From Tubulanus polymorphus (taxonomy: Eukaryota > Nemertea > Palaeonemertea > Tubulaniformes > Tubulanidae): a stretch of DNA of 64,000 bases. Positions 25,917 to 63,308 of the stretch are shown piece after piece. How positions within the stretch are numbered: the stretch's first letter is position 1; each line of letters begins with the position of its first letter. The notes below the pieces were generated by a model that was not told the origin of the DNA, did not search any database, and saw only the letters and a list, made by a program, of their open reading frames with translations. Both the position numbers and the translations under genes were made by a program. The stretch spans positions 13,448,275 through 13,512,274 of the forward strand of contig NC_134032.1 of the NCBI RefSeq assembly GCF_964204645.1. The letters are read 5' to 3'.

Positions 25917-29708
<3,792 letters not shown>

Positions 29709-35894: not shown

Positions 35895-38378
35895 TTCATT
35901 CACAACTCGACGAAACTTCGGGAATGTTGTTTACATTCCAGAGTCGGACGATGACACCGTATTCGGATTCCGAGTCCGCCTAGCGGTCGGAGCCGTCCTC
36001 TCGGCACTAACTCGCAGTTCAGTTACTAAAATCTAAGATGTGATTTTTGTTTTAGATCTGCAGCCGGTTTCACAAAGCGCTATCGAGCCTTGTGTACCTT
36101 TTCATTACTTATCTTATCACTGTTTTCATTTACGCGAATTAACTGTTTCTCTCGAGCCGAGGGAGGGGTGAATTCTATTCAGACCTGAGTACGTTATGAT
36201 TAATTTTTACAATATATGAATTTGTTGTCTACCTTTTTGAAGTGTAAAAAACCGACTAGGCCCTCCTGAGTGCCGCAAACTACCTGGGCGGTCGGCTCAA
36301 AAAAATTTGTCTGATTCAATAAAATTTTTCAAATTACATGGTTACGGAGAGTATGCAAATATAAAAGATAAAATGGCAACAAATGACTGATTCACGCGTG
36401 ATTATAACGAGAATCGGCAGTGGCCTGGACCCCGGTGTCCATCCAACCAGGCATCCAACCATGTTATAGGCTAACTCATAGAGCCTTCGGTTAGTCTAAC
36501 CCGATACTGTGAACTTTTGGATCTTGATAATATTTAGAGACTTTATCCAAGTTCCACTGTAAACAACATCATTATAGATATCGTACAGACTTTTCAACAT
36601 TTCGGAACGAAATGGGTTGAATTTCATACATTGCATTACAAAGTTCTTCTGATTTATTACAGAGAAGAATTTCAAGAGGTGCATTTCTCTTCGTATTTCG
36701 ATTATTAGTGGGTGACTGCTGGTTCGTTATTTGATGCCGATTTTGGATTTTCGTGGTAAATTTGGATCTAGTATGATGATCTGCCTGACTCATTTTGCAA
36801 GACCGCAGCCATTCCAATTTTGAAGTTTTGTTGACTTTGAATCCAGTTTGCTAATGCCGACTGAGGTAAAAAAAAAGTACGATACTTAATAATGCCAGAA
36901 GGAAATATGCAGATGAGGCAAACATGAGAATTCATCAACATGAGAATTCATTAACATTGGACATGATGTTCTAATTTACACTAGAATTTACATATTAGAC
37001 AAATCAAATTTCTAAGTGAATCAGTAATTAATTTTACGTAAGAGTCAGCTGGCTATTGAAACATGAGAATATACATGTACGTTTGACATGATATTCTTAT
37101 CTACACAAGATGGCATTTAGATATAACATATTTCTAATTAAAAATAAATGATTAGCATTATTACCTAATATTTTTATCTCTTGTTACCACGTACCGTTAA
37201 TTTTGTTAAGCCCGTAAATTTTGTAACTCTCCTGAAGGACGCGTTTAATTCTTTAAAATGGTATTTTAGACTTTATTTGGTCCTACTAAGCTTGTGGCAA
37301 GTTTGCTAATGTAAGTAAATTTGGAGAGAAAGGAAAATACCACTGTGTTAGCGAGACGCGATGATGGATGCTGCTTCACAAAAACCAAACGCAAATGCCC
37401 GAGAAAATTAAAACTCTTTCAACGAATTTCAACCTATTCAGGGACGGATCAAGAGCGGGGGGTCCGAAGGTTACGAGACTCCGTAAAGCCTGGTCCGCGT
37501 GTCCTTTCTGTTTGCAGTTCCTCCCGCCAACCGCAACTTGTCCGGGAAGTAATTTCGCATTACATGTATTATAACTCTAATGTGAAAGTTACTTAGTGTT
37601 GTATCAGTGAAATATTAAACTTCATCATCCTCACTTGGAAAAAAAGTCCCCGGCTTACTTCTCAGTTCCAGGGTAAGGATTTTGCATGAATGTTTTTCAA
37701 ATCAGCTTTTATGCCTCCGAAACCCAACCTGCAGGCCCCAAAATTGTAATCAATTATAAGAATGTTCCGGCTTCACGCCTGCGGCGCTCGTAGGCCATGA
37801 TGCAGAAGCCCATAATATTGAGAGCCCTCATGCAATTTGGAACACCCTCGACATAGGACCCAGGGTCCAGTTCCATCAAAAATTGAAATCTTTAAAAGAC
37901 ACAACTTTATATTCACCCTCATCCTAGAAACCACTATAGTGGTTTCTAGAGTAAAATTCTCCGAGTAAAATATGTTTCTCTGAGTAAAATATGTTTGAGT
38001 CAATTCTACCTCGAAACACAAACGTATACGTGAATTGTTATTTCCATATACACAAGACTAAAACTTTTGTTTAGAATAATCCTATTGTTAGAACGAATAG
38101 ACCCCCTGGAGCCAGGTTCCACAGTTATGAATTTACTCGACTACGGTCAAATTTAACATCCACAGGGTTCAGTACTGTATACTATAAATTCGGTTTAACT
38201 GTTTAAGATATTCACATCCATAAAACACGACACAGCAAATGAAACAAATATAATTTGTATCAATTTGGTATCCTCGCGTCGTATTCAAAGGTATACAAAG
38301 AAATTTAATGAACTGGAAGCTTAGGCAGACAATGGATTAATAAAACTGGAGTCAGCCAGTCTATAGCAGCGAATAGAA
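35895..38378. other. Intergenic region between IFT46 and the GPCR
   Basis: It should contain the IFT46 promoter close to 35895-36100. Minus-strand frames at 36496-36817 and plus frames at 37321-37596 lack domains, splice support or repeats of known proteins and are not called. I see nothing else that can be named. Confidence 0.45.
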
Positions 38379-39392
38379 ATGTTTCCTGATACTCTTTTTC
38401 ATTACGGCTTCAACAAAACATGCAGACCGTACGCGAGGACATGGGCAGCATTGTACATCCACACCCTAGTCAGCGCGCCTATTGCGTTCGTTGCCGTCAT
38501 CTTTAACATATTCTGCTACTCGGTGCTGAGGAGATTGCCGTTCCAGCCAACTTACTTCTTGTTGAGATGGCTGACAGTTTTCGATGGGCTGTTTTCGTTC
38601 GCCAGTGTCGTAGAGCACAGCATCGGCGCTCTAGTCGGGTACCATCGATACGGAACGCTAGTGATTTACGTCTATCACAGTCATTTGCTGCCGCAATTCG
38701 ACGCGTATATTCCCAGCGTTAAACAGATACTTTATTTCATACGGAATTGGCTCACTGTTACCATCACGTTTGAGCGCATATTAAGCGTGTACTTTCCATT
38801 CAGATCGAAGGTATGGTTGGTGAAGAGGTTTTTGAGATCGGTAGTGATGGGTGTCGTGTTTGTCAATTTACTCGTTGCGATTCCGTTTTTTCTTCGGGAC
38901 ATACGACCAGCGACGTCGAGAACGTGCGCCTATTTCAAAGAGGATTTCTTTTCCTACAAGCAAATTCCACCGTCTGACGTGTTCCCGCTCGGGCAGTACC
39001 GCAGAGTGATATCGGTGTATTTCTGTACCCTGCTCCCGCTTACGCTGCTGGCGGTCGGAAACTCGGCCCTGTGTTACCACGTCGGTCAAACGCATCGAAA
39101 ACGTTTATCGATGATGGCCGCCGGTTCTGGTCAAAAGACGGACGCTAAAAACAACACCGCTCTTATTATGACGATTGCTATAATAACGGCGCATTTGTTG
39201 TGCGAATGTCCTTTCACGTTCTTTTTACTAAACTACGATTTTCGTTGGTTAGATGCATATTTCAACCGCGCTCTGCTGAAATTCGGCTCAGAAGTTGGCA
39301 CACGGATAGATTCGTTGATTAACGTTGTTTTATACATAATAATAAATTCTCGTTTTCGCCAGTGTGCCCTGAAAATGATCGGTATCAAATGA
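38379..39392 (+). CDS. Orphan rhodopsin-like (class A) G-protein-coupled receptor, intronless
   Basis: A single 337-aa open frame with seven hydrophobic segments: about 30-50, 60-85, 110-135, 155-175, 210-235, 265-285 and 305-325. TM3 ends in NWLTVTITFERILSVYFPF, where FER stands for the usual DRY. TM6 has LLCECPF for CWxP without the Trp, and TM7 has INVVLY for NPxxY without the Pro. N12 in NKT is a possible glycosylation site. The usual Cys at the top of TM3 is missing, so ECL2 C186 would need another partner, such as C15 in the N-terminus. The NWL...ER pattern recalls the large peptide-receptor-like families expanded in lophotrochozoans. The ligand is unknown. The start is the first ATG and there is no sign of splicing. 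Confidence 0.88.
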   Translation: MFPDTLFHYGFNKTCRPYARTWAALYIHTLVSAPIAFVAVIFNIFCYSVLRRLPFQPTYFLLRWLTVFDGLFSFASVVEHSIGALVGYHRYGTLVIYVYHSHLLPQFDAYIPSVKQILYFIRNWLTVTITFERILSVYFPFRSKVWLVKRFLRSVVMGVVFVNLLVAIPFFLRDIRPATSRTCAYFKEDFFSYKQIPPSDVFPLGQYRRVISVYFCTLLPLTLLAVGNSALCYHVGQTHRKRLSMMAAGSGQKTDAKNNTALIMTIAIITAHLLCECPFTFFLLNYDFRWLDAYFNRALLKFGSEVGTRIDSLINVVLYIIINSRFRQCALKMIGIK

Positions 39393-40700: not shown

Positions 40701-40860
40701 TACAGTGGAACCTCGTTACAACGAACCTGGATATAACAAATATAGAATTTCATTCCAAGCAAGACAATTGATTCATTTCATACTGGAAGTAACAATTTAT
40801 CGGTTAAAACAAACATATTTTCTGGTCCCGTGAAGTTTGCTGTAACGAGGTTCCACTGTA
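40701..40860. mobile_element. MITE, TACAGTGGAACCTCGTTA family, copy 2
   Basis: TACAGTGGAACCTCGTTACAAC and GTAACGAGGTTCCACTGTA are near-perfect inverted ends of a 160-bp element with TA at each border. It shares internal TTTCTGGTCCC with the truncated copy near 55690. Confidence 0.85.
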
Positions 40861-42403: not shown

Positions 42404-42624
42404 AGGCTAAACAAAAATGATACCTTGTTTCTCCGCAGTGGCCGGGTCATTTTTGTAAAATATGATAAAATTTATAAACAGTTCATTCCTATAGCGGACG
42501 GGTCTGTTATGGTAAAATTGATCACGATTTAAAAAAGAGTAATGTATAGGGTAGATAGGCGGCCGGCCGGGTCAACATTTAAGCTCAGCAGAGCGGAGAA
42601 ACAAGGTATCAATTTTTTTAGCCT
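42404..42624. mobile_element. GGCCGGGTC MITE, copy 1
   Basis: The ends AGGCTAAACAAAAATGATACC and GGTATCAATTTTTTTAGCCT are inverted. The inside has three to four copies of GGCCGGGTC. It is nearly identical to the copies at 43846-44068 and 61155-61378, which points to recent movement. Two older relatives lie at 55766-55978 and 60845-61058. Confidence 0.88.
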
Positions 42625-42968: not shown

Positions 42969-45900
42969 TTAATGTTTAAGCACGGCGTCGATAAATTGAG
43001 AAAATACACGAATAAAATAGAACTCCTCCCGAGGAACGATTCCGCCATAACCGTCGACGAATCCAATATGGCCGCCGCGAGTTGTGGCTGCCACGGCGAC
43101 GTATTCAGACGCTTGCACAGCTTCAACATTAATCGCTAGAAAATTCAGAAAAAATTAAAGTTCAATCTTAATTTCACAGGTTGCTCAGACTACAGATGAA
43201 ATAGCTACAATTAGACTATGACTAATTGCAGAGAGGACAGTGGCGGTCTCATGACAATGTCATCAGGTTTGAATCCCTGCCAAGGGAAGATGTGTCTGCT
43301 AGGGTTAGAGTTACATGTCTCATGATATCGCTGTCATGTAGGGAGGATGCATCTACTAACGAGGACAGAAGTTTAGTTAGACAAGAATCTTATGACGCCA
43401 TCAAGTTGAAATGGATCCTCCCAAGACAGAATGTGTCTACAAGGGCAGAGTCTTATGACATCCCTTTCATGGAGGCTGTGTCTGCTAAGGCAGGGAGCTT
43501 TACTGGTGACTTATGATTGATCAACCAAGTTTAAACTGGTTTGATTCACCATTGAGGCAGGTTTCAATACTCACTGGATACAAGGGCGAACGGGTCGTCC
43601 GCTGCATTGAGACAAAGTAGTGGAATTTTGATGAGATCGATTTTATCGTTGAGAATTGCTTCCTTGTAATATTCATTGCACGATGGAAAACCATTCATTT
43701 TCGACGTGAAATACTCATCGAATTCACGCAGGGTCGACGACTTAATAAAAAGAGAAAAAATGATGATTGCATCAGTTTTGTAGACCCCGGTTGTGGGGGT
43801 AGAATTTTCTATCAATAGGCCTATCTATCCAAGAATACTAAATTAAGGCTAAACAAAAATGATACCTTGTTTCTCCGCAGCGGCCGGGTCATTTTTGTAA
43901 AATATGATAAAATTTATGAACAGTTCATTTCTATAGCGGCCGGGTCTGTTATGGTAAAATTGATCACGATTTTAAAAAAAGTAATGTATAGGGTAGATAT
44001 GCAGCCGGCCGGGTCAACATTTAAGCTCAGCAGAGCGGAGAAACAAGGTATCAATTCTTTTTAGCCTAAAGTCTATGCATAACATGAAACACCCACAATA
44101 CTTGTATTGAAAAAAGGAAAATCTACTGCACTGACATTTCAGGTAATATGCTTCTACACTCATCGTAAATAGACTGCTACTGATCTATAGCTTAGCTTAG
44201 CTCACACTAAGATCCAATCCGATCGTCTGCCATTTTGTCTTAAGAACATTCATGTCACATTGCGAGGTCAAGTCGCCAATTCGGCCAAATTGTTTGTCGA
44301 ATCTTAGCTACACTCGGGTGACCTGAGATCCACAATGAGTTAGACTTAGTCTAGTATCTAGCCGTTCTTTCCTGAACAACCTAAGACTATTAAATTCGGC
44401 TTAAATTGATTTCCCAGTGGCGGGCTTTTTGATTTCATCGACGATTTATTACTTCATGATTAGTTCCTCGTAAAATAATAGTTTACTTAAAGCCTACCTG
44501 TAAAACCCGTTTCATTTCATTGTTGGTGAGTTTTTTCGCGAATAAATCAAGATTTCTAAAAAAAAGATAAAGAACTCTATAATGACAGAACAGTCACTTG
44601 AAACGGTACATATGCTATGGGAATTTCAGGTTACCGAAAAAATCCATAGAAGAAATAAGCTGCGTTCACACTAGGATTTCAGCACGGTACTAAGCGTTCA
44701 CACTAGGAAATTATTCGCGGCCTATTCGCAGCTTATTCAGTTCCGTACTGAAATACGCGGCTTATTAAGCGTGGAATGCGAAAACCCGATCTCAGTACGG
44801 CGCTGAGCTGGCCGCATATTTTCTGTAGTTTGAACGCAGATTCGGCGCTTAGCTAGCCTCGTATTTACGTCTTCGTAGTACAATACACTCAACACTTATT
44901 ACACTGCCCTCTATTGGCACACTGGGTGACTACTATACTGGGCTTACGAAGTGCCGAATTGTCAACTCGTAGTGTGAACGTAACTGACTGTGTAAGCGCC
45001 GTATTTTGGTGAATTCGGCACCAGCGAAGTACGGTACTTCGTAAGCGTCGAATCTAGTGTGAACGCGGCTATAAACCTCGATGTTTTTGGTTTAGTGAAG
45101 ACCGTAGACCAGGCGAACACGTGTGCCAATCACTGCAGCAGTAAATGCACTCTAACCAACTCACCTGTGAATGGTATCTACGAGACTTTTTGTCAGGTGA
45201 CTGTTATAAATAAATCGATTTATCGGCTCTTCGATGTTGACCATATTTTTTACCGGGTCGAAGCAGGCAGATATTGCCATCGCTGCTTCGACTGGACAAT
45301 CCTTTCCAACTTCCGATAAGTAGTGCATCAGGATTATTCTGTAAAATATGCAGATTCTTACTCAGCATTTGAATCAATTCTACCAGTTTCAACATTACTG
45401 CAGTAAGAGACAAGAGACAAGAGACAAGAGACAAGAGACAAGAGACAAGAGACAGAGACAGAGACAGAGACAGAGACAGAGACAGAGACAGAGACAGAGA
45501 CAGAGACAGAGACAGACAGAGACAGAGACAGAGACAGAGACAGTATTTCACAAACTCTTAATCCGTATTACACATCAACTCAGGGTAGAATTTTACCAGT
45601 CTCAACTAAACCACAGTAAGAGACAGAGAGTCAACTGTATTTCACAAAATCTTACTTAGTATTTGATAGAATTTTAGTAAGTCAGAGACATAGTCAACTG
45701 TACTTCACAAAATATTACTCATTTGAAAATAAATATTACTTTGGGTACAGTGGCAGCGACGAAGCGCAGCAATATTTTACTGAATGACATTTTTCCTTAG
45801 AATACCATGTTTTTGACGAAGTTTTAGTAAATTCACAGCGATTACATTAGAACCTTTCAAAAATCGACAATTGGCTGCGGCAATCGCGCCTACTGTACTT

Positions 45901-48695: not shown

Positions 48696-51600
48696 TCATA
48701 ATAAAATTCGCTTGTCCTGTGAATGTATCATTGTTGGTTTCCATGGCGCCCATCGATTCACGTTCTCTGGCGATAGGGTTTCCGCGTTTACAGAAGGCGC
48801 TATCGTGTAGTGTGATGATAGCGAATGATAGGCGGCAAACAGCCCGGTTTTCACAGCCAGATCGAGTTCATGACCTTTCAGTATGGAACTAATAATTCCG
48901 GCATTCAAACTTGAAAAAAATCAATAATCATTTATACTATAAAAAGGTTTCATTTTCGTTTCAAACCATTCCTTTAAAAAAAAGCTTAAAAAGTTGTTTC
49001 AAAAGGTGTCTCTTAAGTCAACAATCGGGCTCAGCAGTTCCTTATCTAACTTATCTAGAGTTAACCATCAAGACCGAGTTCCACAGGCTCAGTTCATTGA
49101 AAATAAACTCTGAATCAATTGTTTACTCACAACTGTGGAACTGGGTCCAGGGGGGTCATCAGTTGCTCAAAAGCCAATGAGCTTCGCTATATCCACAAGT
49201 TAGTTCTAGCCCTATAGAAAATGTACGTCAATTTTAAATGGCTAATTACCTGTCTCCAGCGCCAGATACGCTGACTATATTATCCGGTCTTTGCTCTTCT
49301 GTGCATGGGTTGTAATGTACGATTGTCAAACCGTTTCTTTCCTTAAAAACGAGGAAAAAAAACGAAAATATAAAGATTTTCAACATCAAGTAACATTATC
49401 ACTGCTTTAGATACATCCAGTCAGTTCTAAGCTACTGGCTTAACTCATTATTTCAAGTTGATCATTTTGATAAAATTTTCAGTGAAATCAGATTCAAAAC
49501 CTTGGAACTAGAACTTGAGCCAAAATAAATCGAATTGTCGCTAACTACACCTGATACCACAGTTTTGAGCTATAGGTAACTCGTTGTAAAAACTGCATGA
49601 TATTCAAACCAGTTTGTTTGTTAACTGCACCCAGGGCCCAGTTTCACAAAAAGGTTTAACACTTAAATCGATTTAATTTCTTCATTAATTCAGTTTATCT
49701 TAAATCGATTTAGGCCTTAATCCTTTTTGTGAAACTGCACCCAGGAGTTCAAACCGGCCATTTTGGACACCGGGCTGCTATAATTCTCGTGTCTTTTTTA
49801 CTAACCTGTAGAAGTTTTCCTCTGACAGGAACCGGATGGTCCATCTCAGTTCGTCGACACACCACTAAACCGTTAGAACCGATAGTTACAAATACGAACG
49901 GTACAACATCCAGCACCGGTCCGATCCTCATTAGAATATCTTCAAAATCTTCTTCTTTCGTTTTAACCATACCTTCAAAAAGAAAGTCGAGATGAAAACA
50001 CGACCGAGATCACAAAATTCAAAACAAAATACCAACGTTCATAAACGTATTTATGATACGCACCTCCGGAAAGATCGGGTATTTGCTGGCCGGTGATTGT
50101 AGCATGGATGACTAAAAGCTCTTTTAGATTTGGTGAAACGTAAGTTAAATGTTTCCAAGTCCCGTTCGTCGTCTTTCTAAACGCTTTGCCGGCCTTGTGT
50201 ATATCTGTAGGTTCAAACCAAACTGAAAATAGAAATCAATCGCGCGACGTTTTTAAATCAGCAGATAATTAATTCTTCTTTCATCGTAACTTTGCACTAG
50301 GGGGAATTGTCTGTGTATTTTCGCACGATTTTAGAAATTTTACGTCCTATCGAGAAAATCGTTGAATCTCTGAAAAGGATTTGGGTTGAGCCCCAGTGAA
50401 ATCGAAAAACACATGGTTGAAATAACAAAACGCTCACCGCGCGAACCCGCCGGAATAAAGTATAATCCCGAGAAATGCGGGACTCGAACCTCGTGGTTTG
50501 TTTGTATTTTACCTATGACCTAGTGAAACGTCATACGTTAGGAATGTAGAACGCTAATTGCAGGGAAAGTGGATTTTACAAGAAATTTACAAAACCATAA
50601 TTTCCATTACATTTCTCTTCCATGATAACAAAATAGTGGAAACTGATATATAAAGAACCCTGTCTTTAATTTAAAGCTTTAAATAATTTAGATTGACAAT
50701 ATTTAAGGATAGTCATTGAGCTATCACTCCTCGCAATGGCGTAACTTCGACTCGCCCAATCAAGCTAGCCTCGTTCTGAGTGTCAATCATAGAGCCTTCG
50801 AGCAGGAAGAAGGAAGGCGTAGTTAGAGAAAAACCGTCAGGAATTATCCGAAAATTGCGGCCACTTAGCTGCAAATCGGCGCAAAAATGGCCCAGGCGAC
50901 GTTCGTAGCGGCGTTCGCTTGTTGTTTCGTGGCGTTAGTTTTAAATATAATCGCGTTCGTTAGCCCGTACTGGTATCAATCCTGGCCCAGAGTTCACAGT
51001 CGATTCGTTAGACTGGGATTATGGGAGGCTTGTTTCGACGGTTATACCCACCCTCAGGATTACAATAGTAAATCGTACGTCGGTTGCTGGTGGGTTTTCT
51101 CGCACGAGTACAGACCCATCTGGGAATGGCTTTGCCCGCGTAAGTATTCGAAGTATTTTCGATGCCGATTCGAACTTGTAAACGGGGTGAATTTGACCTC
51201 GAAAAAGTGGATATTTTTTTCCACTCAGAAAAGTGTAAACAAAATGGCGACGAGTTTGAAATACCAGAATTTAGGTCATGATATAAATAAATGATATCTT
51301 GTAGTAGATTTAGGGGTAGATTTAGTATTTATTCAGTCAAATCATGATAACGATAATTTGAGCGAACAAACCTAGCCTTGAATGTAGGGATTTCAAGTGA
51401 AAATTTTCCAAACACTATAGAAACAATTTAAAGGGCCTAAATGAAAGAAGGGTTTAATATAAGATCATAGCAATTTACAGAACTAAAATCGGTTGAGCCG
51501 TTCAAAAGTTACGAAGGAATTTGTCGGCTGAAAATCGCACTTCTCAGCCATAGAGTCTTCATTAGGAAATGAACTAAAGGTCATAAGGTCAAATGGTGAC

Positions 51601-54600
51601 CAAATGATCAATTTCTTAGTTAAGAAACAATTGAAAGTAGAAAAGAAACTAGTATATCTTTGGGAATTGTCATCCGATTTCAATCAAACTTGGGGAAAAA
51701 TCAGAATAATAGTTTCCCTATTGATAATAAAACTTAAACTAATAATTAATTAAGCCAATTAAGGGTAATTAGCTTAATTAATTGGCTCATTGCCAGATCC
51801 AGGTATTCATCAGCTAAAAGCAGAGGATAAATGTTTACTTATTTGTGTTACAACTTTACAGGGATAAATATATGCGACCATAAATTGTCGCAGACCTCGC
51901 AACACATAGAAATTGGTTGCCATGGTAACCACTATAGCAACAATTGATTCTTGGGATCTATATGGTTGCCGGCGCTCGGAAAGTATTTCAAACCCAAAAA
52001 CGCATCATGATTGGTATCAAAATGACCGTATTTATCCCAGCTTCCTCTATTTAATCAGGATTCATGCATTCAGTTGATTGGTAAGAAAATATTAGAGATC
52101 GAATAAGAATTCTTGAATTTCAAATTTAGGCCAAGTTGCGTTAGGCCTATAGGATCTTCATAGCTGAAGAAGATCCAGAAGGAACCTTTATGGTATATAA
52201 AGTACTCGAAGAAGGATTTATTAATTTACACTTTTATCTTTTGCAGGTGACTCCAAGAAATATGGTGAAGTTAAATAAGCCGAACCCATGTTGAAAAAAT
52301 CATTATGCGAAATGTAGAATTGTAGGCTAATAAAGCTTAGGCCTACCACTGGCTGAAGGGAGTAATTTAAACTGCAACCTTCTTATCTGAATAAGCTTCA
52401 ATAGATAAGTTAATGGATTTGTGGATTGAGAATTTGATTGCTTGTAATTAATAAAATACAGCAATTAGAAATTTTGTGGCGGCCCAAGTCCAAAGATGTT
52501 CATAAGAGTTTGGCCATTTCAATTGTAGCTTATAGTTGATTAGTAAAACATAAATAAATTATTATTTGATAAATAAATATTGTATTTTCATTTCAGTTTA
52601 GTTGTTATATGGTCAGTTTTATTGGGGAGAGGCAGGGGGCTCATCTAGCTGCTTTTTCAGTGTGATTGATGAGCCGAGCGAGGTAGGCCTAAAAGGCCTT
52701 CAGAATAACACACGGGATTTCTTTAGCTTCATCGGTTACATCAACCCCAAAGTTGCTCAAAATAAAATTATTATCATAAACTTCATTGATCCTGGGAGAA
52801 AATGACTTAAAACACCTTAAAACTAGCGTAAACAGCTGATTTACACATGTAAACAAACGCTAACGCGAACCCGGAAGTGAATGAAAATGCCCGGATGTAG
52901 CAATTTTTTCGATACTTCCCAACTTTACAGCAATTTCCGGGGAAGACGGCTTAACGAATCAAACTAAAACCTTTTGCTATATACACTAAAACTACTATAT
53001 TTTTACACCTGGGGGAGAACTAATTTCTAAATTTCATAATTTGATGAAATATATTGCATTTAAAACTTTATAGTGTCGCAAAATCGGTCAAATTGCCGGT
53101 ACAAACAAGTACGGCATACCTGGATGTCAATCAAGAACTTTTGAAAACACCTGTGAAGGTTTCGTGATCCCCAGTCCCGCCCCTTTTTTGCGAGATCGCC
53201 TAGAGGTTGGGCATCTCAAAACTGCATTTTTCGAAATCCGCGGTGAAGAGTACACGCGCACCTGTCAATCAACAATCTATAGTTGGCTAGAGTCCAACAG
53301 CTTGTAACTCGCGAACTACGCCGCGCATCAACATCGAATTTTCAACACAGTACAAGATGCTTATTATCTTCCCTCGAAAATTTAGTTCAAGTAAATCGGA
53401 TGACAATTACTGAATTTATCAAGTTCATAACTTTTGAAGTGGGAAAAAACGGCACTATGGCCGGTTTTGATCACGTGATCTGAAAACCCTATTGAATGTA
53501 CTGATAAATGCTGAAACAAATTCAAAATGCATACATGACTCATGACTATAACAAGTCAATAAATGACAATATGTAAAAATCATTGGGACCCACGCCCCTT
53601 TGTTGTATGCATTATTGAGTCAGATGTGATTGCAAAATATTAAAGTGTACAGCCCAAAATCTGGGGGCATTATAAATATTAATGTTATAAGGCTTACCTT
53701 ATTAAATAATTAAATCATAAGTTATACACTAATACTGTGAATCTGTCAGCTTACACAGTGTCAGATATGGACAGGCCTATTGTGTAAGCTCTTGACTCAA
53801 TAACCAACAAACCACCAAGTCTTAAAAAACTTCATTAATGTGATTAATGTGAGCAATTAAAGGAACAAGGCCCTTCCCCTTCTTGTTTACAGACTGTGCA
53901 CTTATTACAATTAAGGCCAATTCAAGATTGCCCCTGTCATTGGGAAAAATAACTGTCTAGTCAACACCAATGGTTCTCTTGTAGTAGTTCCCTTGAAGAA
54001 GTTGGCAAGTCAAATCTGCAGAACTGCATCCCCTGTCGAAGATGAAAAGGCCCTTACAAAATGTATCATGTATTCAATGTCTAAATCGCATTATTTCAAC
54101 TATTTTCAGCCTGGTTCATCAGCGTTCAAGTGATGATGACGTTGAACGTGTGCATTCATTTAGTTGTCAATTTCATCGTGATGATGGCGTTCCTGAAATG
54201 TTGTCCGCCGAAAAATCTGAAGAAGATTCTGCTGACGATGACGGGCCTGATGTTCTTCTCGGGTAAGTTCAGATTTTTTAGATTTGACACAAATACGGAA
54301 GACTCTAAGCGACGTGGAATCTTTTTAGATTGACTCCGGTGAAACAAGTATTTCAGGCTAATCCTCGTAATCAATAGTGGCCGTCAAACTTGGTATCATG
54401 GGTCCAATTTGGCGTCTTCCAGAAGGATTTAAGATTTCATTGACTGTAGGTGGATGCTAAAAATTCAAATGAAACATGACAAATTTCTTGATTTCACCAT
54501 TAGTACATCTGATGTTAGATCTAATTCGCTCCAGCGTTTTCTTATGAGAAGACGGCGAACTAGGCATTGACGCAGAACACTGACAATGTCGAGGATCTCG

Positions 54601-57600
54601 CATCTTGAGAATACACTCTCTAGAATTGTGTAAATCGAGCCTTAAGTAGCTCATGAATTCAGTTACTCAAGACCTCTTGAACCTAAAGAATTCTCATAAA
54701 GCAACCAGAGATCATTAAATTTCAGTGGTTTAGATTTCAGAGTTTCGATAATTTTTCCTTCGATCGCGACTTCTCTTCCTGGGAATAAGAAACAACCGAA
54801 AAAAAGAAAACGATATCGAATTCCCACACGTATTTCATTATTAACATGCTCTTCCAAGATTGATTTGAGGAAAGAAAAATATTCGAAATACTTCTAACGG
54901 ATGTGAAACAGGTTGGAAACAAGTTCCCAGGAAGGAAGAGTGTGTGGTAGTAATGCTGTGTGGGAATTTGAGGGGCATTGATGAAATATGTACGCATCGA
55001 ATTACGCAGAGTTTACAAACACTGCTGGTACGGTCAAACTCGCTGAAGTCGTGGACTCTTAATTCAATTAAAATCAAATCATGCATGAATAAAGCAGAGG
55101 TGGGTTTAGATCCCGAGAAGCACTCAAGCTGGAGAATTGACTCTAATAATGTGACGCCTCTGAAAGCGAGTTTGACTCTAGTAGAATGCGTACATATAAT
55201 TCATTCGAGCTCTCGCGTTGACATTTCGGTCGTTTCTTATTTTTTCAGCGTTTCTGTTCCTGTTGAACGTGACGATATTCGGCATCCAAGCGAACGACCT
55301 GTCGTGGGATCGCGACTGGATGCCGTGGCCGAAGATAAACTATCTGTCGTGGTCGTACGGTTTCGCTTGCGTCGCCGGCTTTCTTAGTTTCTTCGCCGGC
55401 ATTTTGTTGTACAAAGTCGCGAAGCGTCTGCCCGATAAAAGTCAGCAAGCCGAACGCGAAATGCCAGACGCTCCGCGATTCTAGTCTGGCGTCACGTGGC
55501 GTATCATTTTTCAATTTCTTCCCCGAAGGTAAAGAAAAAAGGCTCCGTTTGTTTTTCAGTCGAGGGAGAAATTTGAGCAGACGGCGGGACCTCGTTTAAA
55601 CGACCTCTGAATCAACGATAAACCTATCATTTCATTTCAGTCGGACAATTTGAACAATTTCATACTCGTAACAAACTATCAGTTTATAGCGAGCCAAACA
55701 TATTTACTGGTCCCCTGAAATGTGTGTAACGAGGTTCCGCTGTAGTATCAAGATGAAATAGAGATTTTAGGCAAAACATTGATACCTTGCTTCTCAATCC
55801 TGCTGGGCTGACCCTACCGGCTGCCTTTCTATCCTGTAAATTGCTTTTAAAATTACGATGATGTCAACCATGAAAAGACCCACCCGGCTATTGAAGTGAA
55901 CTGATTACAAATTTATCGCAGTTAACAAAATGATCCAGTCGGTTAGGAGAAACAAGGTATCATTTTCAAGAAAAACCTGGCATTAGACAAGGACGTGGTT
56001 TATCGGGGCTAACTGTGTTTGAATGAAATCGTATTTGTATTTTAGGTTTCCTATTCGTTCTGTGCGTACTTATTTTCGGCATCAAATCCGAAGATCGTAT
56101 GTGGATGTATCGTCCCGATCACAACACGCTCTCCTGGTCGTACGCGGTCGCCATATTCGCGACGCTCGCTACAATAATAGCGGCCGTCATTCTACTCGGC
56201 GACGCCCGTAGATTACCCGATTATCGTAAAGAGGCTCCGATCATCGACCCGATGGGCGGTAGTATGCCGCGTATGTTCGTACCGCATTCCCACGGGCCCG
56301 GCTCGTACATCGGACCCGGTCCCGGCGGCCCCGCGTATACGGGTCCCGGCGATAAACCGAGTCCGACCGATTCGAAATCTCACGATTTCCCGACCGGTCC
56401 GCCGTCCGAACACGGCGGTCCGCCGTCGGAGTACGGAGACAAGAGGATGCCTCCGCCGGGTATGGTGCTCAGTCGAGGACCGCCGTCCGAGGCTGGAGAT
56501 TACGGTCCGCCGATGCGAGGACCTCCGTCCGAGTCCGGAGATTTCCGCGGACCACCGACGCGTGGTCCTCCGTCGGAGTCTGGTGAAATGCGGTACCCGC
56601 CTCCCCATATGAGAGGACCTCCGTCCGAGTCCGGTGATATGCGCGGACCACCGATGCGTGGTCCTCCGTCGGAGTCGGGTGAGATGCGTTACCCGCCGCC
56701 TCATATGAGAGGTCCTCCGTCCGAGTCCGGAGAGATGAGGTATCCGCCTCCGATGATGCGCGGACCGCCGCCGCGACACATGATGCGCGGACCGCCGCCG
56801 CAGCACATGCGTCCTCCGTTCGGTCACCCGATGTATCGCGGACCACCTCCGCGTGGTCCGCCCTACGGTCCGCCGGGTCGAATGATGTATCCTCCTCCGC
56901 ACATGAGACAACCACCGCCGCAGCACATGAGACTGGATACACCACGAGGTCCCCAGGAGTCGTCCATGTAGAATTACACGCGTCGTATCTGTATATAAAT
57001 ATTTGTATTTTTATGGCGATTGTGAAAACTGGTGCCGATTGTTGTAAACTACAGTAAACCTCGACTGACGCGAGTTCAAATCAGAAAATACACTTAACTT
57101 AACCTTACTCAGGATTTACTGGGACCGGCAGAATTGTAAAGCGCAATCAAAGAATATGGATTGGAAAAAATAAAGAGGACAAGGAAATCAAAATATTATT
57201 TTGTCCTTGTTAAGTCTTGAGTTCAGTAAAGGCAAGGTTAATTGTATTAGGTTTTTTTCTAGACCTTTCTTCGATTCCTTAAAAACTCCTTTGAAATGGA
57301 TGCTTGTGCTTAGAGTGCCTTATATCCGGGATGACTGATCTGTAGGAACGGACCCGGTTTCAGTAGAGGTTTACTGTAATCGATAATTTCAAGAGCTCGT
57401 TAGTAATTATATTTTCTAATGTTAATTAATGTTAATGAATGAATGATTTGTATCGTTGTAGGCGTGTTACTCACATTGTCGATCGTCGTGTTCGGAATAC
57501 GTTCCCTCGATCGTATCTGGCAACCGAGGCCGGACGATAACTTCTTGTCGTGGTCGTACGGGTGCGCGGTCGGCGCCGCCGCGTTCGCGCTCATCACCGC

Positions 57601-60600
57601 GTATCTGTTGCTGCAACAATACTGGGTCGAGGTCGGCGATAAGGAAATACCGGCCGGTCCCGGAGCCGAGTCGCTAACGATGACTCGGCAGCCGGAGAAG
57701 ATTCCGCTCGGTAGCATGCGCTCGGAGAAGAGATCGATCGATGTTTGAATTGCGAGAGTCGGTACCGCTCAAGTCTGACGATTTAAAACTCTGGGTTCCC
57801 TACGACTCCTTGATTCCTTAAAAACTCCTAATACCTTTAAAGCTGATTGAAACTGCTGAGCTAAATGCCCAAAACTCCTTCAACTTTGAGAAATAGGCAA
57901 TTAGATACTTTAGTTATAAACCAGACTGCGCCTAAATCTCCTTAAAAACTCATCTGTAGGGACCCTGAAGCAGTTTATTTTGTCCGTCTCGGAAGTATTT
58001 TTCTGAACCTACATGCGAATTTGGATGCTCTCAAATCGGACAAATTTTCTCCAAAAAAAAAAAAAATCAGATTTGAGCGGTTCTTACTGTATCAAATTTG
58101 TAGATATTTTTCGCGCGGAAAAAAGTAATTCGCTTGCTGCTAAATGATCGAGTATTCTATCTATTTATATATATGGTGATTATTTTTAGCTGCTTAATTT
58201 TAATCTTCCGTTTTCTAACCAGACACGAAAAACGTTTCATGTCGATATTTTGAGTTGTCAGCTGCTGAACGCTATTTCGACCCGGTTTGTGGCCGCTGCG
58301 ACCTGAGACAAGAAGTTGTGGTTTGTGCGACTTTTTTGAACGTTACGAGTTTTACGATTTATTTTCGCTTTTTCACACGAATCGATTTTTAAAATTCACC
58401 TATTTTTTATTCGAATGTTTCACCGATATATGTGATGGTGTGCGACCACAATTTCAAGGTCACGTGGCCTCAAATGGGCGCGTATCGCTGTGAATTGACG
58501 ACTGAATTGTATAGGAATATCCAGGTATTGTGGCAATATATGTAGCTGCATAAATTTGATATTTGAATGTATCGGTTTGAGTGAATGTTGCCAGGTGGCG
58601 CTGTAGTGTTACACCTCCGGCGGCTGTGAATGTTGTATGACGACGCGCATTTCCTTCTCGGTAAAATGATATCCTTACGTTTCGGTAAACTGGAGGATCG
58701 AGGCTAGGTTTGGTTTTGAACATCAAGTTACATGGCTAAAAAAATAAACCAGCTATCGATTAATTCGACAACACGCTGATCTCACGATTGAAGATAACTT
58801 TCGCCGCAACGAAGAAGTAAAATAGTTCGGTCGCTGGTTCCGTTGGCGTAGAATTCGTTGAGATTGGAAATGTGCGCGCGCGATGTGTTTTCGAATGAAA
58901 TGAACGTTGTTTGTAAAACCGCCTAAATTCAATACATATCAATGATATAATTATAAACCGTATTTAAACGTATCTTATCACGGCGGCGTCTGTATTGATT
59001 TTATATACGAACGGCGTCGACGGCGGCGGCCATGTTTTTACTATATTTAAACTTCGTACGCCCCGGACTCGGTTCCACATTTTCTCGCTTTGTAAGTCGG
59101 TTAATTACGAATGTTTTTAAAAGCGTCGATGAATGTGGAACGGGGTCCGGTTCGAATTTTGTAGTGTCGGGGCTTCGATCATTCCTGTTTGTATCGTCAT
59201 ATCTTATAATTATATTTATTACGTAGTTTAGTGTTTCGAAAAATTAATTGCGTCCGATTTACGCTTGAAATGTATAAAATATTAATTTCCGATGTAGTTT
59301 CAGGATACAAATACCTTAAATATGTGGGTTGTTAGAACTATCTCGAATGCGTCTATGTTTCAACACTTAATATTTGAATTGTTGTTTAACTCAAAATATT
59401 GAAATATTTCGTCCGAAAAAAATTGTGTCCATCCAGAATTCATGCCAGAAACTCAGAATATTCAATGTAAATAGATACGAACATTCCGCATTGTCACTTA
59501 AAATAATCATCTGTAATTTCCGTCGTATGATTTTAATTCAACATTCCGATCCTGAAATCGTCCATTATTATTATTATTATTATTATTATTTAATAATCAA
59601 TTTTATACCGTATAATAGATAATTATCATAATTTATGTAAATTGAATTTTAATCGTGGAAAAATTTTTGTACGATATATGCCAAGCGAAAAAAAATGATA
59701 TTGATTAATAATTACCTGAATATTAATATTATTATTATTATTATATTGGGAAACAGCTCAACATAAAGAACGCTGTAATAAAGTATTTTATATGTATGGT
59801 AGATATATGATTTTGTGTTTTGTAATTTGTGGAGGAAGGATTTTTCGGATGAAGGTTAAGCTGCCAGCTGAGAGACTCCTCACCCAACTCATCAACAAGG
59901 AATAAACACTGCATTCATTTCCTGACCTTGAATGATACCTGACTGACCGCGACACCAACTTGAGAGGAAATTCCCCTGACTATTGACGCATAATGAGACA
60001 GTTTGCTTGGAATATGCGGAGAAGACAAGAAAAGCCCATAATACGGAGTATTTATGCTTGGAACCATTTTGAAAATGGCTCGAATAGCATTTATGTCGCA
60101 ACGTCAAATCCTCAATTAGCTCTACTTTCTGGGTTTTTCTCTTCATCTGAATCAGACAGTCACTAGTCCATCGATACTAAGAAACGAACTGTCCTAAATT
60201 TCCTAAGACCTAAAACCTGTATTTCCTCAGTGTAGCGTCTGCGTGCCGACAGTCCTGTTCTCAATTAGGCGAAGAGACTGCTTTCTTTCCGAGGTCAAAG
60301 CGGAGTAATGTACCACCATTGTCGTCGTCATGAAAGACTTGAACGTCACCGGTTCACGAAATTCTAGACCCAGAAACAGTCAGAAGTAAGTATGGGTTTC
60401 TGCTAATTCTGGATTCTCTTCTGGCGTGTTCGTTTCGACTAGAATATGCTCTACCGATTCCACATAGCATTAACCCTTTCAGTGCGTCTACACTGCAGTA
60501 CGGTGTTTAAATCAGTGATAGATTTTCCTAGTACACCGCACTGTGGTGTATTGATGTCATAAGTAATTAGTAATTATCTCTCTTGAAAAATAGAAGCACC

Positions 60601-63308
60601 TGACAAACTAGTGAAATATTAGTAACTAACGATACACCACACCCGTTATATTGGTGTTCAAATTATCTTTAACACTATAGGGTATTAATTAGTCCGCACT
60701 GAAAGGGTTAATCTCCAGTACATTTAATAGAAGTAACCGGTAGAGTTTGATACCGAATGCTCGTTTATTGTATATGCAGAAAATTGAATTTTTCACACTT
60801 CCTTGATAAGAAAAATTGACCTTTATTTCATTATTTTAAGCATCAGGCTAAAAAATGCATAACTTGTGTCTCATTTCTGCAGAGGTTAAAAGTCGACCCG
60901 GACACCTATCTACCCAGTACATTACTTTCAAAAAATCTTGATCAAGCTAATGATAACAGACCAGGCAGTTATAGAAATGAACTGATTACAAATTTTATTG
61001 CTGTTTACCAAAGTCACCCGGCCGATTAGGAGGAACAAGGTAGCATATTTTAGCCTACTGTAATTCCACTAACCTCCTTCCCTAATGCTAACGTAATAAA
61101 CGAATGACCAATAATCCGGACTCGCTTATACTTTAACCGGAATACATACATTCTAAGGCTAAACAAAAATGATACCTTGTTTCTCCGCAGCGGCCGGGTC
61201 ATTTTTGTAAAATATGATAAAATTTATAAACAGTTCATTTCTATAGCGGCCGGGTCTGTTATGGTGAAATTGATCACGATTTAAAAAAAAGTAATGTACA
61301 GGGTAGATAGGCGGCCGGCCGGGTCAACATTTAAGCTCAGCAGAGCGGAGAAACAAGGTATCAATTGTTTTTAGCCTAAAACATGCCTAAGTTCGTTCGT
61401 ACTCACCAGGAATGTTGTTTTGTTGACAAATCTGATGAATATAATCCATGGTAGACAGCGGAATATTACCATCCATAAACACGATACTAGATTCACTGAT
61501 ATCCGATTCGAATTTACCGCTAACCTGTAAACAACAGTTGAATCAGCGTTAGAAACGCTAACCTGTATACCACACCAATATAACGATTGAATCAGTGTTA
61601 GAAACCCAATAGTATCCAGTCTCCCTCAAACCCAGTTCTACTGTTGTCAGTTGAAATGAGTCTCCGGTAAAAACATCGAAAACGAACTAAATAATATCAA
61701 TGGAGAATGGCAGAGCTGGTACAAGCACTGGTTCCATCAACCAACATGAGGGAATTCCAGATTAAAGGTTAGGAGATTCCAACTTCTTGAAAATCAGAGA
61801 ATTTGAATTTTTGGTGTCTTCTTGTTTTGCTGGTGACGAGTGGCACAAGGAACCTCTTGAAAAGAAACAGCCCTCACTGAGGATATCTTATAATTTAATC
61901 AGGGAAGTTTTGGTAAAGGGTCAGGAATATGTCAGGGATTCTTGTGATCTGTAAGAAGCCAGGGTGACCAGCTCAACAATCCATTTGAACACTTCAAATT
62001 CCATTCTGAAACACCTACTAATTCCGTGGTTAAACTTCGATGTATGTTCATGTCACCGATTCCGAACGCAAGTTTTCCAGATTTCTCTAATACAGCGCAG
62101 TACGTCGCAGTCGACTGATCTTCATGCTGTATTATTGCACTCGTATCCTGCCAACATAGAACAGATTTTCATTAAACATTTTTAGAAAATTGGTTTCTAC
62201 AAATGAAACTGGGTTAAAGTATCACAATGCTGGTATCAGTCAGCAGCCTGAAACCCCCCCCATAAGATATTCACCACTAGTATGAAGTGTAGACAATCAT
62301 TTTTGAGAGTGTCGTCATGAAATGTCTAATATCTAGTGTTTGTAGTTCATTTTCAATGAAAAATGTCTAAGGCGAAGAGTACTGGACACACGTGAAGTGT
62401 GGGCGATCATCAAGTTGAGGGGTGGGGGGTGATAATGTTACCACAATTGAAGGAATGATGATTGGTCTACGTACCATAAGTTCACTACAGTAGTCAAGAA
62501 TGAGATCACCGGCATCATCACGACCGACGGCTGAAATCAGGAAAGGATCGTTTCCGAGTCGAGCGAGTCCGTCTGCTGTGTTCCTCGCAACTCCTCCGTA
62601 CGAACGCTTTATCGAACCGGGGTACGTGCCTCCGTCCTTCTATAAACAATCAATTCAGAAATTGGAATTACATTTAAGCGCCCACGAGAAACCAACGCGA
62701 CATTCAAATAGTGCTTTCCAAGGATGAAAATTTGCGACCCTGGACCCAGTTCCACAGTTGTGAATTAGAGTTAACTCTGAGTAAAAATTAGTTCATTTTC
62801 AATGTTTTAACTCATAGTCAAATCTTAAACTCACGATTGTGGAACTGGGTCCAGTCTTACTGCCTCAAAACGACCTCAAACTATCCATCAGACTAGACTA
62901 GGCCTACTTCAATATTGTTAATTTTGAGTTGGCTTATCAGAGCAGATTTAGCCTCTGGGATAGTTCTAAACTTACTTTGAAGGTTTCAGCTTCAATTTTA
63001 GTGACAAAATCAACAATAGATCCACCAATGACGACCTGATAATATATATAAGGCAAAATAGTTCCAAATGTAACATCAAATTTTATTAAGGACAGTAAAA
63101 TAGGCGAGACCCAGTTCCATGTCCAGGAATGGATCCAAGTCCAGTAATGTAATGTGTATTTAACTTACGGGTCTACGATGAGACTTCTTGCTTGTGTTTT
63201 TGCGACTTCTTCGGCTGCGTGCGGGATCCTTGTCACCATTTTGTAGTCGACTCAGTTCCACGGCAATTTTACTGCCGACATCTGCGTTGTTTTTGATCAA
63301 TTCGATGT
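48696..63308 (-). CDS. Bifunctional pseudouridine-5'-phosphate glycosidase / pseudouridine kinase, 3' part
   Basis: This enzyme breaks down pseudouridine from RNA turnover: the kinase half phosphorylates it, the glycosidase half splits the C-C glycosidic bond. Nine exons, minus strand: 63308-63169, 63035-62976, 62639-62475, 62147-62019, 61524-61407, 50222-50064, 49972-49806, 49341-49250, 48909-48696, all in phase (413 aa here). The first exon gives the glycosidase (PsuG/IndA) C-terminus IELIKNNADVGSKIAVELS, then a basic linker (RSRRSRKNTSKKSHRR). The PfkB kinase follows: VVIGGSIVDF, GGVARNTADGLARLG, FLISAVGRDDAGD, FVTIGSNG, and SVSGAGDS with the catalytic Asp. The glycosidase core must lie right of the window. 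The 11.2-kb intron 50223-61406 contains a whole claudin-like gene on the other strand. Confidence 0.93.
49050..49152. mobile_element. MITE, GGACCCAGTTCCACAGTTGTGA family (divergent copy)
   Basis: The right end CTCACAACTGTGGAACTGGGTCC is well kept; the left (CCGAGTTCCACAGGCTCAG) is diverged. It lies in an intron of the pseudouridine enzyme gene. Confidence 0.5.
49626..49745. mobile_element. Palindromic MITE (TGCACCCAGGGCCCAGTTTCAC)
   Basis: The left GCCCAGTTTCACAAAAAGGTT and right CCTTTTTGTGAAACTGCACCC are inverted, with nested TTAAATCGATTTAA-type palindromes inside. It is 120 bp with no coding capacity. Confidence 0.75.
50887..57748 (+). CDS. Claudin-like four-helix protein gene with three alternative last exons
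   Basis: Shared exons 50887-51139 and 54110-54262 encode residues 1-135. TM1 spans about 7-28, then the claudin signature W...GLWEAC...C (GLW at 43-45, Cys 48 and Cys 67), and TM2 at about 90-118. Exon 2 ends in phase 1 (TCG G|GTAAGT). Three downstream exons, each with a phase-1 AG acceptor and its own stop, then supply TM3, loop 2, TM4 and tail: 55249-55484 (213-aa protein), 56046-56971 (443 aa) and 57462-57748 (230 aa). Claudins seal or form pores in cell junctions; invertebrate members work in septate junctions. No second copy of exons 1-2 exists, so separate genes are unlikely. The gene lies antisense inside an 11-kb intron of the pseudouridine enzyme gene. AATAAA occurs at 57169 and 59777. 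Splicing choice is inferred. Confidence 0.88.
51140..54109. other. Claudin-like gene intron 1
   Basis: About 3 kb. It includes an AT-rich inverted repeat around 51743-51790 (TTAATTAAGCC / GGCTTAATTAA type). I see no exon, mobile element or RNA gene that can be supported. Confidence 0.4.
55249..55484 (+). CDS. Claudin-like gene, alternative terminal exon A (short tail)
   Basis: A phase-1 acceptor follows a T-rich tract (TTATTTTTTCAG). It encodes TM3 (AFLFLLNVTIFGI), the loop QANDLSWDRDWMPWPKINY, LSWSY, TM4, and a 26-residue polar tail KVAKRLPDKS to PDAPRF. No perfect AATAAA follows before exon B, so 3' end formation here would rely on a variant signal. Codon use is GC-rich like the other exons of this gene. 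Confidence 0.85.
55670..55746. mobile_element. Truncated TACAGTGGAACCTCGTTA-family MITE end
   Basis: The right end GTAACGAGGTTCCGCTGTA and the preceding TTTACTGGTCCC match the 40701-40860 copy; the left end is missing. Confidence 0.6.
55766..55978. mobile_element. Older relative of the GGCCGGGTC MITE
   Basis: The ends TTAGGCAAAACATTGATACC and GGAGAAACAAGGTATCATTTT match the family termini, while the interior (GAACTGATTACAAATTTATCGC) matches the copy at 60845-61058 rather than the three young copies. It sits between terminal exons A and B. Confidence 0.65.
56046..56971 (+). CDS. Claudin-like gene, alternative terminal exon B (long Pro/Gly/Met/Arg-rich tail)
   Basis: A phase-1 acceptor (TTTTAG|GTTTCC). 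TM3 GFLFVLCVLIFGI, loop KSEDRMWMYRPDHNT, LSWSY, TM4, then a cytoplasmic tail of about 245 residues. The tail has eight GPPSE motifs, mostly as RGPPSESGEM(R)YPPPHM blocks, then RGPPPRHMMRGPPPQHM-type repeats. It is rich in Pro, Gly, Met and Arg and almost surely disordered. Such low-complexity tails may act as multivalent binding sites for SH3, WW or GYF domains, which is inference. Long open frames on the minus strand (56213-56945) are shadows of this GC-rich repeat. Confidence 0.88.
57050..57378. mobile_element. MITE with TACAGTAAACCTC ends
   Basis: TACAGTAAACCTCGACTGACG at the left is matched inverted by TAGAGGTTTACTGTA at the right. It is about 329 bp, between terminal exons B and C. It supplies the AATAAA (57169) that may end exon B transcripts. 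Confidence 0.65.
57462..57748 (+). CDS. Claudin-like gene, alternative terminal exon C (PDZ-ligand-like end)
   Basis: A phase-1 acceptor (CGTTGTAG|GCGTG). TM3 GVLLTLSIVVFGI, loop RSLDRIWQPRPDDNF, LSWSY, TM4 and a 45-residue tail ending SIDV. A hydrophobic-x-hydrophobic end fits a class II PDZ ligand, which many claudins use to bind ZO-type scaffolds; binding is not shown by sequence. An AATAAA lies at 59777. Confidence 0.85.
60470..60711. mobile_element. piggyBac-type MITE
   Basis: TTAA borders flank inverted ends CCCTTTCAGTGCG and CGCACTGAAAGGG. It is 242 bp including both TTAA copies. TTAA targets and CCCTTT-like termini are typical of the piggyBac superfamily. Confidence 0.85.
60845..61058. 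mobile_element. Older relative of the GGCCGGGTC MITE
   Basis: The left AGGCTAAAAAATGCATAAC and right GGAACAAGGTAGCATATTTTAGCCT ends match the family. The interior aligns with 55766-55978. Confidence 0.65.
61155..61378. mobile_element. GGCCGGGTC MITE, copy 3
   Basis: About 224 bp, almost identical to the copies at 42404 and 43846, with intact inverted ends and internal CCGGCCGGGTC. It lies about 30 bp from the pseudouridine enzyme exon at 61407-61524, so it crowds that exon's splice donor. Confidence 0.9.
62740..62854. mobile_element. MITE, GGACCCAGTTCCACAGTTGTGA family (best copy)
   Basis: TGGACCCAGTTCCACAGTTGTGA at the left is matched inverted by TCACGATTGTGGAACTGGGTCCA at the right, about 115 bp. 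It lies in an intron of the pseudouridine enzyme gene. Related ends are at 7351, 38115, 49050 and in the array at 26225-26570. Confidence 0.8.

Follow-up and report, generated by a model that had tools for sequence, protein, structure and literature searches.

Organization of the claudin-like gene

The DNA analyzed here is a 64-kb stretch (the window, G000:C8:13448275-13512274; G+C content 37-44%) within a 268-Mb genome of 77 contigs; its genes and introns are of the animal type. On its + strand lies a claudin-like gene, in which two common 5' exons are followed in tandem by three last exons, referred to as A, B, and C. Exon 1 (50887-51139, 253 nt) carries the start ATG, the first transmembrane segment (TM1), and extracellular loop 1, and ends at a GTAAGT donor (3' edge CCCGC/GTAAGT). 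Exon 2 (54110-54262, 153 nt) encodes TM2, a short cytoplasmic link, and the start of TM3; it is in phase 1 at both ends and has the 3' edge TCGG/GTAAGT. Each last exon encodes the remainder of TM3, loop 2, TM4, a tail, and a stop codon of its own. Loop 2 (including the motif LSWSY) and the tail comprise 24 and 23 amino acids (aa), respectively, in exon A (55249-55484, tail end PDAPRF), 20 and 257 aa in exon B (56046-56971, tail end PQESSM), and 20 and 44 aa in exon C (57462-57748, tail end KRSIDV). The B tail is rich in Pro, Gly, Arg, and Met and is repetitive. The gaps between the last exons measure 561 nt (A-B) and 490 nt (B-C).

GT donors and AG acceptors were found throughout the introns of the gene. 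The acceptors read TTTTTTCAG/C for A (55249), GTATTTTAG/G for B (56046), and CGTTGTAG/G for C (57462). Exons 1 and 2 together leave one base over, and the codon begun by it is completed by the first two bases of A, B, or C; the frame is restored at this one codon in all three joins (phase 1), giving predicted isoforms of 213 aa (A), 443 aa (B), and 230 aa (C). The exon coordinates, phases, and stops given in an earlier note on this DNA were all correct when the sequence was read again, and its proposal of one gene with three in-phase homologous last exons was borne out, no further exon 1 or 2 having come up in the genome search or, by eye in the forward frames, in the gaps. The three-last-exon structure is real and well supported.

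Assignment to the claudin superfamily

In comparisons with the Claudin_2 profile (Pfam PF13903, curated cut-off 29.1 bits), all predicted isoforms scored above the cut-off, with 78.4 bits for A, 76.8 bits for B (tail trimmed to 230 aa), and 76.1 bits for C, corresponding to expectation (E) values of 8e-22 to 4e-21. The profile covered residues 15-189 of A, 15-187 of B, and 15-186 of C, and full-length isoform B, queried with one mistyped residue, still gave 74.8 bits. With partial queries, exons 1-2 by themselves reached 41.7 bits, and the last exons by themselves reached 31.1 bits (A), 30.2 bits (B, 65 aa), and 25.3 bits (C). Because the whole isoforms outscored both exons 1-2 alone and the last exons alone, each last exon completes a claudin domain. 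For the PMP22_Claudin profile (PF00822, curated cut-off 26.7 bits), isoform A reached 28.4 bits.

Hydropathy analysis (Kyte-Doolittle) gave four hydrophobic segments in each isoform. The translation of loop 1 reads W29, G44-L45-W46, C49, and C67, and this W-GLW-C-C arrangement is the claudin signature. Solved structures were searched with isoform C only (phmmer), which returned nothing related and one chance match (E 0.36). Judged by profile, number of passes, and loop-1 residues, the gene is a member of the claudin superfamily; a role of its products at cell junctions is a prediction only.

Homology, age, and constraint of the last exons

Pairwise local alignment of the last exons gave scores of 126 (A-B), 102 (A-C), and 132 (B-C). 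The highest scores among 500 shuffles per pair were 47, 45, and 49, respectively; the similarity lies 19-27 standard deviations above the shuffles. By this measure A, B, and C are homologous copies of one another. The proportion of synonymous differences (pS) was saturated for A-B and B-C, and a synonymous distance (dS) of 1.28 was calculated for A-C. The ratios of nonsynonymous to synonymous proportions (pN/pS) were 0.51, 0.65, and 0.44 for the three pairs versus means of 0.98, 1.07, and 1.00 after codon shuffling (300 shuffles per pair, lowest single shuffle 0.72). With synonymous differences saturated or high and pN/pS below that of shuffled codons, the copies are old, yet their protein sequence has been kept. 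All three reading frames are intact, and the G+C content at third codon positions was 0.71 for A, 0.61 for B, and 0.74 for C, similar to exon 1 (0.60) and exon 2 (0.74). In the tail of B, in-frame repeats extend over 56474-56809 (+) with units of 51, 96, 45, and 27 nt; all are multiples of 3, as expected for coding sequence.

These data bear on the alternative that B and/or C are relics of duplications of the whole gene from which exons 1-2 have disappeared, with A alone in use. Such a history would fit the position of acceptor A, which is the nearest and pyrimidine-richest of the three, and the presence of elements resembling miniature inverted-repeat transposable elements (MITEs) in both gaps. 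It is difficult to reconcile with the intactness of B and C after an old divergence at pN/pS values well under those of shuffled codons, with the in-frame repeats of the B tail and the precise phase-1 acceptors, and with the absence of any exon 1 or 2 remnant in the gaps (by eye) or elsewhere (genome search). We regard relics as very unlikely, and dead copies in general are disfavored by the amino acid constraint on A, B, and C.

A single gene in the genome

Protein searches of the whole genome, in which the best candidates only are scored so that distant copies may escape, were carried out with each predicted isoform. The isoform A query (one residue mistyped) gave a single match each for exon 1 and exon 2, plus A, B, and C (five matches among seven candidates scored), and the isoform B and isoform C queries recovered only A, B, and C (three of three candidates each). 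Among the best candidates scored in the 268-Mb genome, neither exons 1-2 nor the last exons had a further copy. Inspection of the A-B and B-C gaps by eye in the three forward frames revealed no sequence resembling exon 1 or 2.

A further possibility was that B and C are parts of other genes whose 5' exons went unrecognized, or are trans-spliced to exons 1-2 in the manner of lola and mod(mdg4) (PMC3228551). A last exon that begins inside TM3 depends on the 5' half of a claudin, and only one such half matching this gene came up in the genome search. Cis-splicing suffices, since A to C span less than 2.5 kb on one strand. Separate genes were rejected, as no second exon 1 or 2 was present in the genome search or, by eye, in the gaps, and we consider this explanation in either form most improbable.

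Proposed use of A, B, and C as alternative 3'-terminal exons

Taken from the sequence, the best explanation is that A, B, and C arose by tandem duplication of a last exon and serve one claudin gene as alternative 3'-terminal exons; to this we assign a probability of roughly 85%. The last exon of a single claudin-family gene would have been duplicated twice in tandem long ago, and the pre-mRNA would join the common exons 1-2 to one of A, B, or C; each of these would bring a separate stop and 3' end, the choice of 3' splice site being coupled to that of the polyadenylation (poly(A)) site. All three last exons would be spliced in vivo. The product would be a four-pass junction protein with a constant loop 1, a half-conserved loop 2 in which DRxW and LSWSY are kept, and one of three predicted cytoplasmic tails: a short one (A), a 257-aa proline-rich repeat (B), or a 44-aa PDZ-ligand-like tail (C). 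The tail would constitute the largest difference between the isoforms, for scaffold binding and trafficking.

Several observations weigh against this interpretation. At the protein level, last exon C alone (25.3 bits) remained under the Claudin_2 cut-off, isoforms B and C gave no PMP22_Claudin match at E values up to 1, and an exon-by-exon genome search with PF00822 returned six places, the claudin-like gene not being among them. The genome search itself was limited to the best candidates, and the isoform A query carried one mistyped residue. At the level of RNA processing, the pyrimidine tracts of acceptors B and C (pyrimidine fraction 0.56) are weaker than that of acceptor A (0.81). Acceptor A, being nearest and pyrimidine-richest, should therefore win unaided, so that splicing to B or C would require A to be bypassed or restrained. 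The stretch from stop A to acceptor B contains neither AATAAA nor ATTAAA, and variants only were found there, e.g., GATAAA at 55617.

Candidate poly(A) signals were located farther downstream. An AATAAA at 57169-57174 (+) lies 198 nt past stop B; when the B-C gap was shuffled 1000 times, 672 of the shuffled sequences contained AATAAA or ATTAAA. The first AATAAA after stop C is at 58743-58748 (+), where 768 of 1000 shuffles contain one. The hexamers were dropped as proof of separate 3' ends because they occur at chance level.

Differences between the isoforms in loop 2 and tails

For comparison of the parts of the last exons, the limits of TM3, loop 2, TM4, and tail were drawn by eye, and the four-residue insert in loop 2 of A was excluded from the identity counts. 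Loop 2 including LSWSY was identical at 12 of 20 positions for A-B, 12 of 20 for A-C, and 13 of 20 for B-C, with 11 of 20 invariant; without LSWSY the values were 7/15, 7/15, and 8/15, respectively. For TM3, identities of 9/13 (A-B), 5/13 (A-C), and 6/13 (B-C) were counted, and for the TM4 core 4/18, 5/18, and 6/18 in the same order (9/23, 10/23, and 11/23 if LSWSY is included). The first 23 tail residues, compared without gaps, were identical at 7/23 (A-B), 0/23 (A-C), and 1/23 (B-C) positions. Loop 2 was rejected as the clearly best-conserved part of the exon: this is true of A-C and B-C only, TM3 being better conserved in A-B (9/13), and the difference shrinks if LSWSY is assigned to TM4.

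Three statements of the earlier note on these regions stood in part. Of the motifs described as shared, LSWSY is present in all three exons, whereas the proposed loop-2 motif with either L or R at its second position has to be replaced by D-R-x-W, which occurs in all three; the DLSW of A is an extra element just before it, in a loop that is four residues longer. The tails, described there as unrelated, are not entirely so: a juxtamembrane [KR]RLPD is common to A and B, together with the 7/23 identity given above, in contrast to the tail of C (0/23 with A, 1/23 with B). The emphasis on a different loop 2 in each isoform is justified insofar as about half of the loop differs, but this divergence is no greater than that of the membrane segments, and the tails diverge most.

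The C-termini are SIDV in C, ESSM in B, and APRF in A. By the general rule for PDZ ligands, SIDV fits, ESSM is a weaker fit, and APRF does not fit. The 257-aa proline-rich repeat tail of B is unusually long among claudins. As the tails diverge most, choice of the tail is the likelier output than choice of loop 2, and the sequences suggest that the main output of last-exon choice is likely to be the choice of cytoplasmic tail.

Origin of the terminal exon unit

A genome search with Claudin_2 gave 17 matches, of which four derived from the claudin-like gene and 13 were elsewhere. Ten of these 13 were fetched with their surroundings; the other three lie on C5, C7, and C1, and the C5 match also spans the TM3-TM4 end. 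Contig C4 (6.0-9.6 Mb and 25.9 Mb) holds nine of the 13 other Claudin_2 matches and four of the six PMP22_Claudin matches. A profile built from the three isoforms was compared with 1502 open frames in the fetched stretches, none of which was above the inclusion threshold (best E 0.054).

The last exons chosen for comparison, L001, L002, L003, and L008, were those among the ten whose match spans TM3-TM4 to the end; L003 and L008 may be stargazin-like, judging by their motif. In all four, the frame runs through the same TM3 glycine, and the AG there gives G as the first base of the codon. From this AG and the frame, a putative phase-1 acceptor was placed at that glycine in each. Since four other last exons start at the same TM3 glycine, the tripled unit would be an old, natural terminal exon of the superfamily in this genome.

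No neighboring second copies of the L001, L002, L003, and L008 last exons were found within the fetched stretches and the window, the range in which L002 and L003 were compared; for L008 and L001, self-searches covered the whole genome. There, the last exon of L008 found only itself and its relative L003 (two of two). The query with L001 recovered, apart from itself, six places on C5 (E 0.93) that contain a stop and are regarded as chance matches. These six weak matches lie at G000:C5:7299451-7325793, and five of them are spaced by about 2.86 kb, which gives the region the look of a tandem array, the claudin match being probably fortuitous. Thus, the last exons of the four superfamily paralogues are single where searched versus triple in the claudin-like gene.

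A candidate hairpin in intron 2

The polypyrimidine tract of acceptor A (55224-55241, +) is complementary at 17 of 18 bases to an arm within intron 2 (54784-54801, +), a candidate for pairing with and masking of acceptor A. In an RNA hairpin of this kind, the intron-2 arm would hide the tract, leaving B or C in use as long as the hairpin stays closed. Such an added layer, which would be compatible with the use of A, B, and C as alternative last exons, is a tentative and rather unlikely proposal. In its favor, when the upstream 1 kb was shuffled 300 times with its dinucleotides kept, no shuffle reached the 17/18 run at acceptor A, compared with chance-level results for acceptors 2, B, and C (216, 181, and 199 of 300 shuffles, respectively). 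In the folded intron 2, all 17 Watson-Crick pairs had a probability of at least 0.76, 15 of them of at least 0.9, and the 18-mer was found with at most one mismatch at 14 places in the genome, namely 12 in one C4 array plus the two arms. The energy of the duplex is ordinary in comparison, an equally stable one being formed in 31 of 200 shuffles; the tract is rich in A and T, and the window abounds in inverted repeats (one setting gave 35, a set that omitted the intron-2/acceptor-A helix since AA accounts for 7 of its 17 dinucleotides). Moreover, the hairpin was seen in one genome, without covariation. Within 1 kb upstream of acceptors B and C, no pairing above chance was observed.

The intron-2/acceptor-A helix thus has the status of a candidate only, striking by contiguity and ordinary by energy. 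A fuller scheme in which the gene acts as a claudin tail switch, with loop 1 and DRxW/LSWSY kept, the tail swapped among three, and the nearest exon gated by the acceptor-masking intron hairpin, appears quite unlikely. The 12 copies of the 18-mer TTTCGGTCGTTTCTTTTT on C4 (G000:C4:2813732-2835586) occur on both strands, many of them about 2 kb apart, and probably form a tandem array.

MITE-like elements and other features of the window

The MITE-like element in the A-B gap (55780-55962) has inverted ends that recur in similar form three more times in the window. It is one of four copies of a first family of approximately 180-205 bp (42413-42616, 43857-44056, 55780-55962, and 61167-61366) with ends like TGATACCTTGTTTCTC/GAGAAACAAGGTATCA. 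The MITE-like inverted-repeat element in the B-C gap (57050-57378) has ends resembling two others in the window, and was grouped with these in a second family (27384-27545, 40701-40860, and 57050-57378; ends like TACAGTGGAACCTCGTTA/TAACGAGGTTCCACTGTA), of which it is a diverged relative; a second full copy of it was not found on searching. The inverted repeats of the two gaps were considered as regulatory elements and dropped because the MITE-like ends recur in the window.

Elsewhere in the window, a single open frame of 341 aa at 38367-39389 (+) matched the model of Srw-type G protein-coupled receptors (E 2e-8), and an open frame at 7556-7978 (+) matched the Major Facilitator Superfamily (E 1.8e-12).

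Relation to known systems

Claudin diversity is usually put down to whole-gene duplication. In vertebrate claudins, first-exon choice alters the N-terminal half of the protein (TM1/loop 1), and CLDN10 is among the genes with alternative first exons. The isoforms of CLDN18 arise by first-exon choice (PMC9153115); CLDN18 (1a/1b) is likewise one claudin gene whose isoforms are made by choosing one of several exons. The claudin-like gene would be its mirror image, with the first exon chosen there and the C-terminal half, from TM3 to the tail, chosen here.

A distinction has been drawn between homologous 3'-terminal exons, such as those of human CapZ-beta, and true mutually exclusive exons (PMC3228551). 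Of 101 terminal exons in alternative use on the X chromosome of Drosophila, first and last exons taken together, 14 share such features (PMC3228551). In the sense used there, of internal exons with common exons on either side, A, B, and C are not mutually exclusive exons proper, because each carries a stop and none is an internal coding exon. They are tandem and homologous, have the same acceptor phase and a stop each, and no second set of 5' exons was found among the best candidates scored, in keeping with the arrangement of homologous alternative 3'-terminal exons. For pip, eight tandem clusters of terminal exons are described, and competing RNA structures are described for PGRP-LC, CG42235, and pip (PMC9013439). 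CapZ-beta, pip, PGRP-LC, and CG42235 resemble the claudin-like gene in combining a common 5' part with alternative homologous or variable 3'-terminal exons. Unlike in these four, each last exon of the claudin-like gene encodes anew both a tail and one half of the four-pass membrane domain, and the isoforms are predicted ones. Compared with the competing RNA structures of PGRP-LC and pip, there is one 17/18 pairing here, at acceptor A only. The products of lola and mod(mdg4) are nuclear factors. These two genes likewise have variable terminal exons on a common 5' part (PMC3228551); they are trans-spliced, whereas nothing in the claudin-like gene calls for trans-splicing.

A claudin with homologous alternative last exons was not found among the matches listed in the open-licence literature (titles and abstract openings). 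Both PMC3499410 and PMC5223305 mention claudins as well as alternative last exons, and neither describes such a claudin in the portions accessible here. The architecture is a claudin variant of an established principle, the tandem duplication of terminal exons, and widens a known kind rather than founding a new one. If the proposed use of A, B, and C is true, one junction protein could be tied to different scaffolds from one locus by a swap of its C-terminal half outside the core of loop 2, the tail above all, and the gene would offer a clean test of how far the claudin tail alone sets place and function.

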